From Mariprofundus ferrinatatus (GTDB lineage: Bacteria > Pseudomonadota > Zetaproteobacteria > Mariprofundales > Mariprofundaceae): a DNA stretch of 64,000 bases. Location: contig NZ_CP018800.1 of NCBI RefSeq assembly GCF_002795825.1, positions 1,178,001 through 1,242,000 on the forward strand. Direction: 5' to 3'. The notes beneath the pieces are model-generated. The model worked only from the letters and a program-made list of their open reading frames with translations. It was not told the origin of the DNA and searched no databases. Shown in pieces: positions 5,887 through 48,978 of the stretch. Position numbers and translations under genes: made by a program. How positions within the stretch are numbered: the stretch's first letter is position 1; each line of letters opens with the position of its first letter.

Positions 5887-7086
5887 ATGTCCGACTCATC
5901 CTACCAGTTCATTAACTCCCAGACGCAGCTAGAGAAAGCGTGCATCGAGATCAGCCGCTGCCGTGTACTCTGTGTCGATACAGAGTTTCACCGTGAATCA
6001 ACTTACTATCCTGAGTTTGCGCTGCTTCAGATTTACGGTTGTGGCCAGTGCTGGATTATCGACCCGATAGAATTACCAGACCTGACCCCCATCTGGAAAA
6101 TCATGGCCAATCCCGAGATTCTGAAAGTATTTCATGCCGGCCGACAGGATGTTGAGATTGTTGTCAAGGAATCGGGATTCATGCCTCTGCCGCTGTTTGA
6201 CACGCAGATTGCTGCTGCACTGCTCGGATTCGGACAGCAGATAGGCTTTGGCAACCTTGTACAGCGCATCACCAAGAAAACACTGGCCAAACAGGAGTCT
6301 TTCAGCGACTGGAAAGCGCGGCCGCTACGGCAGAAGCAGCTTGATTACGCTGCTGACGATGTAATCTGGTTGATGCCTGTCTACCAGCACCTGAAAGAGC
6401 GGCTGGAAGCCCAGGGCCGCATGAATTGGCTAATCGAAGAGCAGGCTTCGCTCTGTGACCCGGCCACATACGAAAGTGATGAAGCGAATGTTTTCTGGCG
6501 TGTAAAAGGCTCTAACCGCCTGAAAGGCAGGCAACTGGCAACACTCAGGGCTCTTTCGGCATGGCGGGAGCGCCAGGCACAGCACCACAATATTCCGAGG
6601 CGCCGCATGATTGCGGATGAGCAACTGCTTGAAATGTCACGCAGGGACAAATTGACTCTGGAGAGCATGAGTGGGATCCGCGGCGTTAACTCTGGTTTCG
6701 TCAAACGCCATGGCGATGCGATTATCAATGCATGGCAGAGTGGCATGGAGTGCCCTGAAGAGCATTGGCCAAAGCTTCCTGCACGCCGCCACAATACAAA
6801 AGGAACCGAACTGAGGCTGGAGATGCTGGACACGCTGGTGCGGCTGAAGGCTGAAGATGGAGAGATCGCCTCCCCGATACTTGCCAGCAAGTCGGACCTC
6901 TCAGAACTTGCTTCATGGGGCTATCGTTGCAAGGGAGATGTTCCCGAGGTGGCCTGCCTGCATGGCTGGCGATACGAACTCGTTGGCCATGATCTGTTGC
7001 GGCTTTTACGCGGTGAGATATGCCTGCACCTTGATCCGAATACCGGCATGCCAGTCATCACAGAATTTGATCAGACATGCCAGTGA
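5887..7086 (+). CDS. rnd: Ribonuclease D
   Basis: 399 residues. The DEDDy 3'-5' exonuclease domain occupies residues ~1-180: motif I is VDTEFHRESTY, motif II surrounds FHAGRQDVEI, and motif III is LDYAADDVIWL with the tyrosine and aspartate of the DEDDy class. An HRDC domain follows (~RLKGRQLATLRALSAWRERQ, residues ~205-280), then a second helical region as in E. coli Rnd. It trims 3' ends of tRNA precursors and other small structured RNAs in the cytoplasm. Its stop overlaps the next start by one base (TGATG), so it forms a unit with the unknown gene downstream. Confidence 0.95.
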   Translation: MSDSSYQFINSQTQLEKACIEISRCRVLCVDTEFHRESTYYPEFALLQIYGCGQCWIIDPIELPDLTPIWKIMANPEILKVFHAGRQDVEIVVKESGFMPLPLFDTQIAAALLGFGQQIGFGNLVQRITKKTLAKQESFSDWKARPLRQKQLDYAADDVIWLMPVYQHLKERLEAQGRMNWLIEEQASLCDPATYESDEANVFWRVKGSNRLKGRQLATLRALSAWRERQAQHHNIPRRRMIADEQLLEMSRRDKLTLESMSGIRGVNSGFVKRHGDAIINAWQSGMECPEEHWPKLPARRHNTKGTELRLEMLDTLVRLKAEDGEIASPILASKSDLSELASWGYRCKGDVPEVACLHGWRYELVGHDLLRLLRGEICLHLDPNTGMPVITEFDQTCQ

Positions 7087-7715
7087 TGAAACTCTGCTTC
7101 TCTATAGATGCCCTCTCCCCCTCCGGCGCCCATGCATGGCGACTGCAGAAGGATCAGACATGGCGCGAATGCACCTATGCCGAACCCCTGGAAGATGGTG
7201 ATGCGTGCATTACGGATAAGAAAACAGCCGAAGAGTGGAGTGGTCGCCGACTGACAAAAGATATGTCTCAGGTACTGATACCCCAGAAGAAAGCCGGCAC
7301 ATTTGATTTTCTGATGCGCGGCATCTTTGCCCATGCCGTTCTGCACCGTAATTCAAGTGCGCCGCTGCCGGACAAGAGACAGATGCTTGAGTGCATCGCA
7401 GTCCTTAAACCAGGCACACCGTGGCTGGTTTACCTTAATGTTTCCGGTCACTTCGCTGCTCTCGATACAAGTACCGTTTCAATCATATCCAATCTCGATA
7501 TTGCAGTTCGCGGTGAGATCGCTTCAAGTGGTGACTATATAGGTGCCAGGGCTGCCCGTGACGATAAGATGATGGATGAACTCTACCGCCAGTTTCTAGG
7601 CGGCTGGCTGGATCACCTCAACTCATCAAACATGAATGTATTTGTTCCCGATGCTGAAAAGCTGAAAGATGAGGCTGACTATGTCGAAGCGATCCGGAAC
7701 TGGTCACACGAATAG
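7086..7715 (+). CDS. Conserved-looking protein of unknown function, coupled to rnd
   Basis: 209 residues from the ATG at 7086, which overlaps the rnd stop; an in-frame ATG at 7077 would add three residues. I do not recognise the family. There is no signal peptide, membrane segment or obvious catalytic motif. The C-terminal ~50 residues (YRQFLGGWLDHLNSSN and NVFVPDAEKLKDEADYVEAI) look like a helical, possibly interacting tail. Residues ~95-140 alternate strand-like hydrophobic segments (PWLVYLNVSGHFAALD, VSIISNLDIAVRG). Translational coupling suggests synthesis at a fixed ratio with RNase D; a role in RNA handling is only a guess. Confidence 0.65.
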   Translation: MKLCFSIDALSPSGAHAWRLQKDQTWRECTYAEPLEDGDACITDKKTAEEWSGRRLTKDMSQVLIPQKKAGTFDFLMRGIFAHAVLHRNSSAPLPDKRQMLECIAVLKPGTPWLVYLNVSGHFAALDTSTVSIISNLDIAVRGEIASSGDYIGARAARDDKMMDELYRQFLGGWLDHLNSSNMNVFVPDAEKLKDEADYVEAIRNWSHE

Positions 7716-7894
7716 CCTGATTCAATAATTGCCAAGGGCAAGTTATGGAGAGGTGAGTCCATGCGCTCTGGCTGCTGCAGTTCTGTTTACCAGCCTTTAC
7801 GCCTCTATTCATCACTTCCGCCCACACAAATTATTAAAGAGTCGGAGTTATTTTCCGATATACCATAATCAGGCCCTGGCGACGGAGGTGTCCC

Positions 7895-9370
7895 GTGAAA
7901 TATATCAGAAGCGAAGAGGAGCTTCAGAAGCTTTCGGAAACGATAGCTAGCGTCACCAACAATGCTAAAACGTTGGAGGTGCTTGTTTTCGGTGGTGGTA
8001 TCGGCGGGCTGTCGATTCTGGATGTGCTTAGCGGTTACGATGGCGTTTCAGTGTCCACCATTGTGGACAAGGTAGAGAATGCACCGGCCTTTGAGTTAGC
8101 CAGAATGCTGGGTGTTAAAACATCTACCGATTTCGATACAGCACTGGAAGCATTCAGGGGCGATATTGTCATTGATGTCACTGGCGATCCGGACCTCTAT
8201 AAAAAACTTCGTGATTATACCGAACCCCACCATATAGAACTGATATCAGCCAAGTCGGCCAAGCTACTGTTTGATCAGGCAAATCACCTGCTAAAAGATG
8301 AACAGACCATTCAGAAGCAGAGCTCCCGCCTAAACCTGCTTGACCAGATGATGGATATATCGCTGCTGCTTGAAGAGAGGCCGCCGCTATCTGAACTGAC
8401 CAGCAAATCTTTCGAAGGCATTCACTCTCACATGAATGCCAGCAAAGGCCTGGCTATCATGATCGACAAGCAAGGCAAGATTGAATTTATTGGCGCCATT
8501 GGCAGCAAGAAACCTGAATGTGCGAGTCACTCCTGCGGATTTTCGGCCTGTAAGAATATTGGCGAGGCATGTGCCACACTTACGTGGAGCGACCGCTATA
8601 AAGAGCTCCATCCTCCCATTCAGCTTGCTTGTACAGAGCTGGATGTCAGCTACAATATTATCCTGCCGGTCTGGCAGGATCAAAGGCTTGCTGGCGCACT
8701 GCTGTTCGACTTCCAGCATGCGCTCTCCAGAGATCAGAAAACCTCCCTGGAGTTGGCTTCAATTCACCTTAACATGACTTTCAAGACGCTTGATCATCTG
8801 CATACGCTGGAAGAGATGGCGATCTTCGACGGACTGACTGGGGTTTTTAACCGGCGAAAGTTCGATATGCAGCTCTATCATGAAGTCAGCCGTACCAAAC
8901 GAACAAGAAATGGCACACTCTCCTGCGGTTTTATCGACCTGGATAATTTCAAGCATATCAATGACACCTATGGCCATCAGGTCGGCGATCAGGTGCTTAA
9001 GCATATCTCAGACAGTATCCGTGAGAGCCTTCGCGACTATGACACCTGTGCCCGCTATGGCGGCGATGAGTTTGTAATGCTTATTCCCAGCGACAATGGC
9101 ATTGAAGGCTCCGGGCTTGAAGCTATAGGTATGAGAATCCTGGAAAAGGTGTCAAAGCTCCGTCTTGCCAACCATCCCAAGTTAAGAGCAGGTGTCTCGA
9201 TCGGGATCTGCACACAGTCCTGTGAAACGGTGGATGCTGAAGGCATTCTGAAACAGGCGGATGAAGCGCTCTACATGGCTAAAAAGGCCGGCAAGGGGTG
9301 CATGCGCATATTTGCCGACGAACAGTACCACTTAACGACAGATGAGACGGCAGTGAAAGCCATCGCGTGA
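7895..9370 (+). CDS. Diguanylate cyclase with N-terminal Rossmann-like and Cys-rich middle domain
   Basis: 491 residues from GTG, with GGAGG six bases upstream. Residues ~27-125 look like a Rossmann nucleotide-binding fold: EVLVFGGGIGGLSILDVL, then VIDVTGDPDLY. Residues ~145-300 resemble a GAF-type sensor carrying a cysteine cluster C209, C214, C219, C226 plus C246. Residues ~305-475 are a GGDEF domain with intact active site GGDEF (389-393) and an RxxD inhibitory site (R380-D383) exactly five residues before it, so it should make c-di-GMP and be product-inhibited. No transmembrane segment, so cytosolic. The 179-base spacer upstream holds its leader. The inputs (NAD(P)-like ligand, metal or Fe-S) are inferred. 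Confidence 0.88.
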   Translation: MKYIRSEEELQKLSETIASVTNNAKTLEVLVFGGGIGGLSILDVLSGYDGVSVSTIVDKVENAPAFELARMLGVKTSTDFDTALEAFRGDIVIDVTGDPDLYKKLRDYTEPHHIELISAKSAKLLFDQANHLLKDEQTIQKQSSRLNLLDQMMDISLLLEERPPLSELTSKSFEGIHSHMNASKGLAIMIDKQGKIEFIGAIGSKKPECASHSCGFSACKNIGEACATLTWSDRYKELHPPIQLACTELDVSYNIILPVWQDQRLAGALLFDFQHALSRDQKTSLELASIHLNMTFKTLDHLHTLEEMAIFDGLTGVFNRRKFDMQLYHEVSRTKRTRNGTLSCGFIDLDNFKHINDTYGHQVGDQVLKHISDSIRESLRDYDTCARYGGDEFVMLIPSDNGIEGSGLEAIGMRILEKVSKLRLANHPKLRAGVSIGICTQSCETVDAEGILKQADEALYMAKKAGKGCMRIFADEQYHLTTDETAVKAIA

Positions 9371-47771: not shown

Positions 47772-47954
47772 TTACAGGTTATTAACTATCGCAATGATTT
47801 CTGACGGCCTCATACGTCTGGTGTAATCCACATTCACAAATCTGTGAATCACAATACCATCACGGCCTACAATATAAGTTGCCGGCACTGGCAGTTCAAA
47901 GCGGTCATTACCCTGATTGGCTGCCGGATCAATGCAGAACCCATATCGCCTGCG
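47772..47954 (-). pseudogene. C-terminal fragment of an AhpC/TSA peroxiredoxin-like gene
   Basis: Sixty in-frame codons ending at TAA 47772-47774 resemble the end of thioredoxin-fold peroxiredoxins (AhpC/TSA): the stretch RFELPVPATYIVGRDGIVIH then FVNVDYTRRMRPSEIIAIV. Upstream of it the frame meets a stop near the arsS end, with no plausible start codon and no N-terminal domain. The 250-base space between arsM and arsS thus holds the remnant of a third gene. In other bacteria a full AhpC/TSA-like gene often accompanies arsM/arsS. A sequence error could also explain the loss. Confidence 0.7.
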
Positions 47955-48009
47955 GTAACAATTACAGTATGTTCGCCTGAAATCTCCTGATCTGATCTGT
48001 TCAGATCAT

Positions 48010-48978
48010 TCACCCATCCAGTGCGCCTCCACAACTTGAACCCTGACCGGCCGTACAGCCGTAACAGTGATCCATCACGATAACTGGCCGACCCGATAAC
48101 TCTTCACACATCAGGTCTCGAAGGTGCAATCTGTTTCCGGTTTCCTCCTGCTGCATTGGAAGGTCGAGCATCTGGTTAAAATCGCAGTCGTATACATACC
48201 CCTGCCAGTCGATACTGATCAGATTCCTGCACATCACTCCCGGAAGGTTATCTTCGCTATAAGCTTCTTTAAGAAGCTGCATGTAACTGGCGAATTCCCC
48301 ACGTGAAATCAAGGTGCTGCCAAATCGCTGTATCGGCATATTGGTAATGGTGAAAAGCTTGTTGAACTGAATCCCGTAGCGGATATGCAGCTCACGTTTA
48401 TAAGCCACTTCAAGCTCCGCTTGCGACGGAGGCAGACAGGCCCCCTGCGGGTTGTACACCAGAGTCAGTGTCAGCCCTGAGCCATCCACACCATATCCAA
48501 GCTGGTTTAACCTTTTGAGTGCCCTGATACTGCTATCGAAAACACCTTTGCCACGTTGTGCATCGACATTATCGCTCAGGTAACAGGGTAGCGAAGCAAC
48601 CACCTCAACCTTGTGCTCAGCCAGAAATCCGGCAGCCCATTCAAACCCTTCCTCTTCAAGGATCGTCAGGTTGCAGCGATCAATAATGCGCAGCCCCAGC
48701 TCTCTTGCTTTACGGACAAGATACCGGAAATGGACATTCATTTCCGGAGCACCGCCAGTCAGATCAAGGGTTTTTACATGATGAGTAGCGAGGTAATCAA
48801 TGACCGACTGTACGGTCTTATCGGACATCACCTCTTTACGCCGGGGACCAGCATTGACATGGCAGTGCAGACAGGTCTGATTGCAGAGATAACCGAGATT
48901 GACCTGCAACGTATCCAGCTTGCCACGATTGATGGCTGGAAAATCTGTCTCTTTAAGTAATGGCAGCGTTGCATGCAT
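48010..48978 (-). CDS. arsS: Arsenosugar biosynthesis radical SAM protein ArsS
   Basis: 322 residues. Radical SAM cluster motif CNQTCLHCHVNAGP (CxxxCxxC, ~32-45), LDLTGGAPEMNVHFRYLVR (GGAP-type motif), TLVYNPQGACLPPSQAELE and the C-terminal MDHCYGCTAGQGSSCGG, which would hold an auxiliary cluster. ArsS is thought to attach the 5'-deoxyadenosyl group from SAM to dimethylarsenite, making dimethylarsinoyl-adenosine on the way to arsenosugars. Usually next to arsM, as here. Upstream of its ATG is a 311-base spacer. Confidence 0.93.
   Translation of the reverse strand: MHATLPLLKETDFPAINRGKLDTLQVNLGYLCNQTCLHCHVNAGPRRKEVMSDKTVQSVIDYLATHHVKTLDLTGGAPEMNVHFRYLVRKARELGLRIIDRCNLTILEEEGFEWAAGFLAEHKVEVVASLPCYLSDNVDAQRGKGVFDSSIRALKRLNQLGYGVDGSGLTLTLVYNPQGACLPPSQAELEVAYKRELHIRYGIQFNKLFTITNMPIQRFGSTLISRGEFASYMQLLKEAYSEDNLPGVMCRNLISIDWQGYVYDCDFNQMLDLPMQQEETGNRLHLRDLMCEELSGRPVIVMDHCYGCTAGQGSSCGGALDG

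Follow-up and report, generated by a model that had tools for sequence, protein, structure and literature searches.

The window analysed here is a 64,000-nucleotide stretch (positions 1178001 to 1242000) of the 2.30-Mb, one-contig genome of a Mariprofundus, a marine iron oxidiser of the Zetaproteobacteria. Near its start lies a gene for a soluble protein in which a Rossmann-type domain, a GAF-like domain and a diguanylate cyclase (GGDEF) domain are predicted to follow one another (Table 1). As read from the sequence, the frame opens with a GTG codon, at a position that agrees with the start in the orthologues, and runs for 491 codons to a stop at 9370.

Table 1. Features of the cyclase gene and its product, with positions in the window
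Feature	Residues	Position	Strand	Basis
Ribosome-binding site GGAGGT, 5 bases 5' of the GTG		7884..7889	+	sequence read directly
Soluble diguanylate cyclase gene, 491 aa, Rossmann-GAF-GGDEF		7895..9370	+	ORF, Pfam, orthologues
Rossmann-type input domain, five beta-alpha units (predicted)	27-118	7973..8248	+	AlphaFold, Foldseek, profile
GGGIGG dinucleotide-binding loop (predicted)	33-38	7991..8008	+	conserved glycines
Asp58, end of beta2	58	8066..8068	+	invariant 28/28, most informative column of the domain
Long signalling helix joining Rossmann strand 5 to the GAF-like domain (predicted)	119-164	8249..8386	+	AlphaFold
GAF-like domain and exit helix (predicted)	165-304	8387..8806	+	AlphaFold, Foldseek
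Cysteine loop (Cys209, Cys214, Cys219, Cys226)	209-226	8519..8572	+	sequence; clade-restricted
Cys246, fifth cysteine of the GAF-like domain	246	8630..8632	+	sequence
GGDEF catalytic domain	309-467	8819..9295	+	PF00990, E 2.2e-41
Inhibitory site RxxD (R380-x-x-D383)	380-383	9032..9043	+	sequence motif
GGDEF signature	389-393	9059..9073	+	sequence motif

In those orthologues of the genus that could be checked, apaH and rdgC are conserved beside the cyclase gene, which is convergent with them, and in several relatives rnd and a gene for a 212-amino-acid protein lie upstream of it. The latter gene (window positions 7077 to 7715), which overlaps the end of rnd and adjoins the cyclase in several relatives, encodes a conserved protein to which no function is assigned and for which a Pfam search gave no match. 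A redox or iron role argued from an operon or the neighborhood was considered and dropped, the conserved neighbors being apaH, rdgC, rnd and the 212-amino-acid gene. No c-di-GMP riboswitch or other Rfam RNA was found within the window, and promoter and terminator scans scored no better than shuffled sequences. The gene is not part of the core genome: several near-complete Mariprofundus genomes (for example G002, G003, G009 and G010) lack it, and genome G019 has a remnant beside apaH (L026; contig C15, about 47783-48140) in which the N-terminal part is missing and the frame is shifted. Because this remnant has decayed, the gene is regarded as dispensable.

The GGDEF domain is the only Pfam domain recognized in the protein, and the earlier description of a soluble GGDEF protein with intact active and inhibitory sites agrees with what we find. 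The residues equivalent to those of PleD (D348, N356, D365, R380, D383 and D391) are all present when placed by the residue spacing of PleD, and the inhibitory RxxD site lies five residues upstream of the GGDEF signature. The protein should hence be an active cyclase that makes c-di-GMP and is subject to feedback inhibition. In enzymes that make cGAMP (Hypr enzymes), the selectivity residue is a serine (PMC6456294); the aspartate at this position, Asp365, indicates GTP as the probable substrate and c-di-GMP as the probable product, and a cGAMP output was rejected on this residue. Elsewhere in the same genome, a GGDEF match runs across one TGA stop (G000:C1:1886720-1887241) and adjoins a GGDEF gene (1885764-1886285), which could possibly represent a broken cyclase or two short genes.

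The Rossmann-type input domain

When residues 1-143 were searched against the PDB as a single sequence, chance matches only were returned, with DnaK first, and no Pfam model matched the domain of the window protein itself above the cut-off. The picture changes with an alignment of 28 relatives of the domain (alignment A1), the profile of which matches acylating acetaldehyde dehydrogenases in the PDB (E 1.1e-6 to 5.6e-6); kinship with dehydrogenases is thus visible only with the alignment profile and not from the single sequence. True acetaldehyde dehydrogenases of other genomes form the tail of the profile search. Taken member by member, 16 of the 28 relatives match the Pfam family GFO_IDH_MocA (best 4.4e-6), 12 match DapB_N (best 5.3e-8) and 15 match the NCBIfam acetaldehyde dehydrogenase. 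Neither Pfam nor NCBIfam holds a dedicated model for this domain.

An AlphaFold model built from alignment A1 (mean pLDDT 84.5, pTM 0.68) alternates strands (E) and helices (H) in the order E27-32, H36-45, E51-57, H64-71, E75-77, H80-86, E91-94, H99-112 and E115-118, followed by a helix spanning residues 119-149. Foldseek searches with this model are led by acetaldehyde dehydrogenases and inositol dehydrogenases of the Gfo/Idh/MocA type, from E 7e-5 onward. Structure prediction, structural search and profile all concur with the proposal, made in the earlier note, of an N-terminal GGGIGG Rossmann-like fold, and the models identify this fold as that of the NAD-binding dehydrogenases. The C-terminal catalytic domain of such dehydrogenases is absent, with the helix, the GAF-like domain and the GGDEF domain in its place, and a non-catalytic, nucleotide-holding sensor would be the natural reading of the N-terminal domain.

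Ranked by information, the leading columns of alignment A1 are D58, G33, A69, G35, D90 and T96, and these hold across proteins with wholly different outputs. Among the GGGIGG glycines, G33 is found in all 28 relatives, G35 in about 95% and G38 in about 80% of the weighted relatives; the third glycine of the GxGxxG pattern is absent in many relatives that are fused to a methyl-accepting chemotaxis protein (MCP) signaling domain. G33, G35 and D58 belong to the loop and the beta2 end that form the dinucleotide site in folds of this kind. Asp58 occupies the position at which NAD-specific Rossmann folds grip the adenosine ribose, and we infer the same role for it in the cyclase. FAD was judged an unlikely ligand, given that the matches are to NAD dehydrogenases and that the residue after beta2 is Asp rather than Glu.

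The GAF-like domain and its cysteines

The helix that leaves the Rossmann domain (119-149 in the Rossmann model, 129-161 in the GAF model) leads into a domain that Pfam scarcely recognizes: the GAF model does not match the window protein at E 0.1 or better, and it matches weakly in three of 16 orthologues at this threshold (best 0.0022). An AlphaFold model based on the 16 orthologues (pLDDT 83.7, pTM 0.79) gives the order helix, helix, two strands, cysteine loop with a short helix, three strands and exit helix, and its best Foldseek matches are the GAF domains 3cit and 3oov, with 3ci6 and phytochrome GAF domains also listed. As modeled, the middle domain is a GAF domain by fold and divergent by sequence, in keeping with the GAF-like middle suggested earlier. 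A bilin-type GAF was rejected; phytochromes are listed by fold, but at an identity of about 10%, and neither a PAS nor a PHY domain occurs in the layout.

The cysteines of the window protein are at positions 209, 214, 219, 226, 246, 344, 385, 439, 443 and 469. The four to which attention had been drawn previously (C209, C214, C219 and C226) are all exactly placed, and Cys246, in the same domain, had been missed. Residues 200-250 contain five cysteines where 1.04 would be expected (hypergeometric p = 0.0017), and any four cysteines within 18 residues occur in 2.2% of shuffles of the protein; the clustering is beyond chance, if not overwhelmingly so.

In a maximum-likelihood tree of 21 full-length orthologues, the window protein falls in a supported clade of six sequences of the same genus. 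All five cysteines of the 200-250 region are present in five of these six (the window protein, L042, L044, L046 and L047) and in the fragment L086, and the sixth member, L041, has three. The next relatives outside the clade have three (L043, the partial L025 and the remnant L026) or two (L045 and L049), and orthologues from other genera mostly have none, with L061 having four in a different arrangement. The five-cysteine set is thus kept in this clade, L041 excepted, and dwindles or disappears outside it. Within the clade the loop is poorly conserved, four of 26 positions being fixed, two of them cysteines, and the retention of cysteines amid such variation suggests selection; the loop around residues 211-214 is also the least certain part of the GAF model. 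Because orthologues that lack the cysteines keep the same Rossmann, GAF and GGDEF layout, the cluster appears not to be central to how the family works. The earlier note's cysteine cluster is not supported as a mechanism of general reach, for it is complete in one Mariprofundus clade only and lost in most other genera.

Carriers of the Rossmann domain

The Mariprofundus genome has four carriers of the domain, including the cyclase of the window. The simplest is a 302-amino-acid Rossmann-GGDEF protein (L084:1717-2625; G000:C1, about 314216-315124), and the other two are a 436-amino-acid Rossmann-PAS-GGDEF protein (L085) and a 1026-amino-acid hybrid kinase with the order Rossmann-GAF-HisKA-HATPase-REC-REC-GGDEF (L083:1596-4676). 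Because the GGDEF signature of the kinase has decayed to RTDEF, this terminal domain probably has no cyclase activity. In other Pseudomonadota, the Rossmann domain heads proteins of 215-260 amino acids that end in an MCP signaling domain, and these share no broad genomic neighborhood. A further protein of about 190 amino acids (L090; G204:C21) seemingly consists of the Rossmann domain with no recognizable output domain.

At E 1e-8 or better, the profile of alignment A1 finds matches in 99 of 299 sampled Pseudomonadota genomes, and in 58 of the 239 of good quality, in a sample that is rich in close relatives and in which a few of the weakest matches are true acetaldehyde dehydrogenases (L091 and L092). 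The spread beyond Pseudomonadota is represented by one record, that of the clostridium Acetoanaerobium noterae (NZ_CP154629.1), which encodes a 260-amino-acid soluble Rossmann-MCP protein (L107:4001-4783; profile E 5e-25). This record is labeled as a plasmid, yet it is 2.6 Mb long. From these architectures, the Rossmann domain appears to be a mobile sensor module common to cyclases, kinases and chemoreceptor-like proteins across phyla.

Proposed ligand, signal path and relation to known systems

We favor, with moderate confidence, a diguanylate cyclase in which a non-catalytic Rossmann sensor binds the nucleotide that gates activity, NAD(H) being the likeliest. The cytosolic enzyme would be controlled by a domain akin to the NAD-binding half of acetaldehyde dehydrogenase and Gfo/Idh/MocA proteins, with the GGGxGG loop and Asp58 as the seat of the nucleotide, most likely NAD+ or NADH. 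Whether this ligand is bound, or in which redox state, may shift the Rossmann sheet at its C-terminal end; the helix from residue 119 could relay the shift through the GAF-like domain to the GGDEF dimer and so alter c-di-GMP synthesis, with product feedback expected through the RxxD site. Helical linkers usually carry the signal in signaling proteins, and such a route would fit here because every kind of output (kinase, PAS, GGDEF or MCP) is attached at the same end of the Rossmann domain. A second input is conceivable in one Mariprofundus clade, whose five-cysteine GAF site could hold a metal or Fe-S center or become disulfide-bonded. The broader proposal, that the domain is an undescribed, Rex-like mobile NAD(H)-sensing module feeding c-di-GMP, phosphorelay and chemotaxis signaling in at least two phyla, seems to us about evenly balanced between right and wrong.

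By analogy with the dehydrogenases, NAD(H) is our best guess for the ligand; however, kindred Rossmann folds bind UDP-sugars or CoA, many of the MCP-fused relatives lack the third glycine, the domain of the window protein itself reaches no Pfam cut-off, the gene is not core, and the neighboring genes give no redox hint. The N-terminal Rossmann domain of the NeuD/PglB and PglD_N families holds a UDP-sugar. A sensor for a different nucleotide (UDP-sugar, CoA or ADP-ribose), which would couple c-di-GMP to envelope or stalk polysaccharide precursors instead of to redox state, would be in keeping with the weaker Pfam and NCBIfam matches among the relatives, eight to the NeuD/PglB family, three to PglD_N and four to CoA_binding, and with the link between c-di-GMP and stalk formation in Zetaproteobacteria (PMC8250860). 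We nevertheless consider it unlikely, since the matches to NAD(P)-dependent dehydrogenases are both better and more numerous and an aspartate (Asp58) closing beta2 suits NAD.

Two further readings would move the decisive input away from a bound nucleotide. The main signal could come from a metal or Fe-S center on Cys209, Cys214, Cys219, Cys226 and Cys246 that senses iron, oxygen or redox state: the clustering exceeds chance, the five cysteines persist in a variable loop, the host is an iron oxidizer and Fe-S GAF domains are known, for example in the chloroplast sensor kinase (PMC6949291). The loss of some or all of these cysteines in L041, the sister sequences and most orthologues of other genera, with the layout intact, and the low confidence at which the loop is modeled nonetheless make this reading less likely still. 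Least likely of all, in our estimate, is a Rossmann domain that is a fold relic, serving dimerization or protein contacts with no ligand and leaving activity to be set by the GAF-like domain or by partners. Some MCP-fused relatives do keep the domain even though the third glycine has been lost; however, the ligand-facing loops and Asp58 are its most conserved parts, among relatives that share less than 30% identity and have different outputs, and it is these parts that should disappear first from a relic.

If the NAD(H)-gated reading is true, the fusion of a Rossmann sensor to cyclases, kinases and proteins of the chemoreceptor type would give redox state a direct route to behavior. NADH balance is known to act on attachment and movement mostly via transcription, through Rex, or via flavin or heme PAS domains. 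Because neutrophilic iron oxidizers need reverse electron flow to make NADH, the NADH ratio would be a reasonable signal by which to remain in the iron-oxygen gradient or move away from it, and the sensor may tie the redox state of the cell to its behavior. The 302-amino-acid Rossmann-GGDEF paralogue makes this idea readily testable.

The literature searched, largely without subscription journals, contained nothing on point about cyclases, kinases or chemoreceptors with a Rossmann or NAD-binding input, and the word Rossmann does not occur in a 2022 inventory of stimuli for c-di-GMP signaling (PMC8846402), in line with the earlier remark that no characterized cyclase has this arrangement. Both GAF-input cyclases and sensors of the Rossmann type, Rex among them, have been described; their combination was not found in that literature. 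In Rex, the repressor that senses NADH/NAD+, a Rossmann domain likewise serves as a sensor with no enzyme activity, and Rex is a weak match to the profile of alignment A1 (E 0.014); unlike Rex, the cyclase has no winged-helix DNA-binding domain, and its output is c-di-GMP rather than transcription. Rex was not found in the 46 genomes searched, including that of the window, whereas control genomes were positive, which is only consistent with the NADH-sensor idea; Rex is rare in Pseudomonadota in any case.

With acylating acetaldehyde dehydrogenase (PDB: 1nvm, 4jn6 and 4lrs) and Gfo/Idh/MocA proteins, the cyclase shares the Rossmann half, the glycine loop and the acidic residue after beta2; it differs in having no catalytic domain, strand 5 passing straight into the signaling helix. 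The cyclases Lcd1 (cAMP) and DcpA (GDP) also have a GAF-like domain before the GGDEF domain (PMC8846402), but the window protein has an additional Rossmann domain in front, a GAF domain too divergent for Pfam and a cysteine cluster restricted to one clade. The chloroplast sensor kinase likewise has cysteine in its Fe-S GAF sensor domain (PMC6949291), whereas the cyclase has five cysteines that form a candidate cluster site, with a different spacing and a cyclase output. Set beside these systems, the protein is an ordinary cyclase joined to an unnamed, dehydrogenase-related sensor domain.
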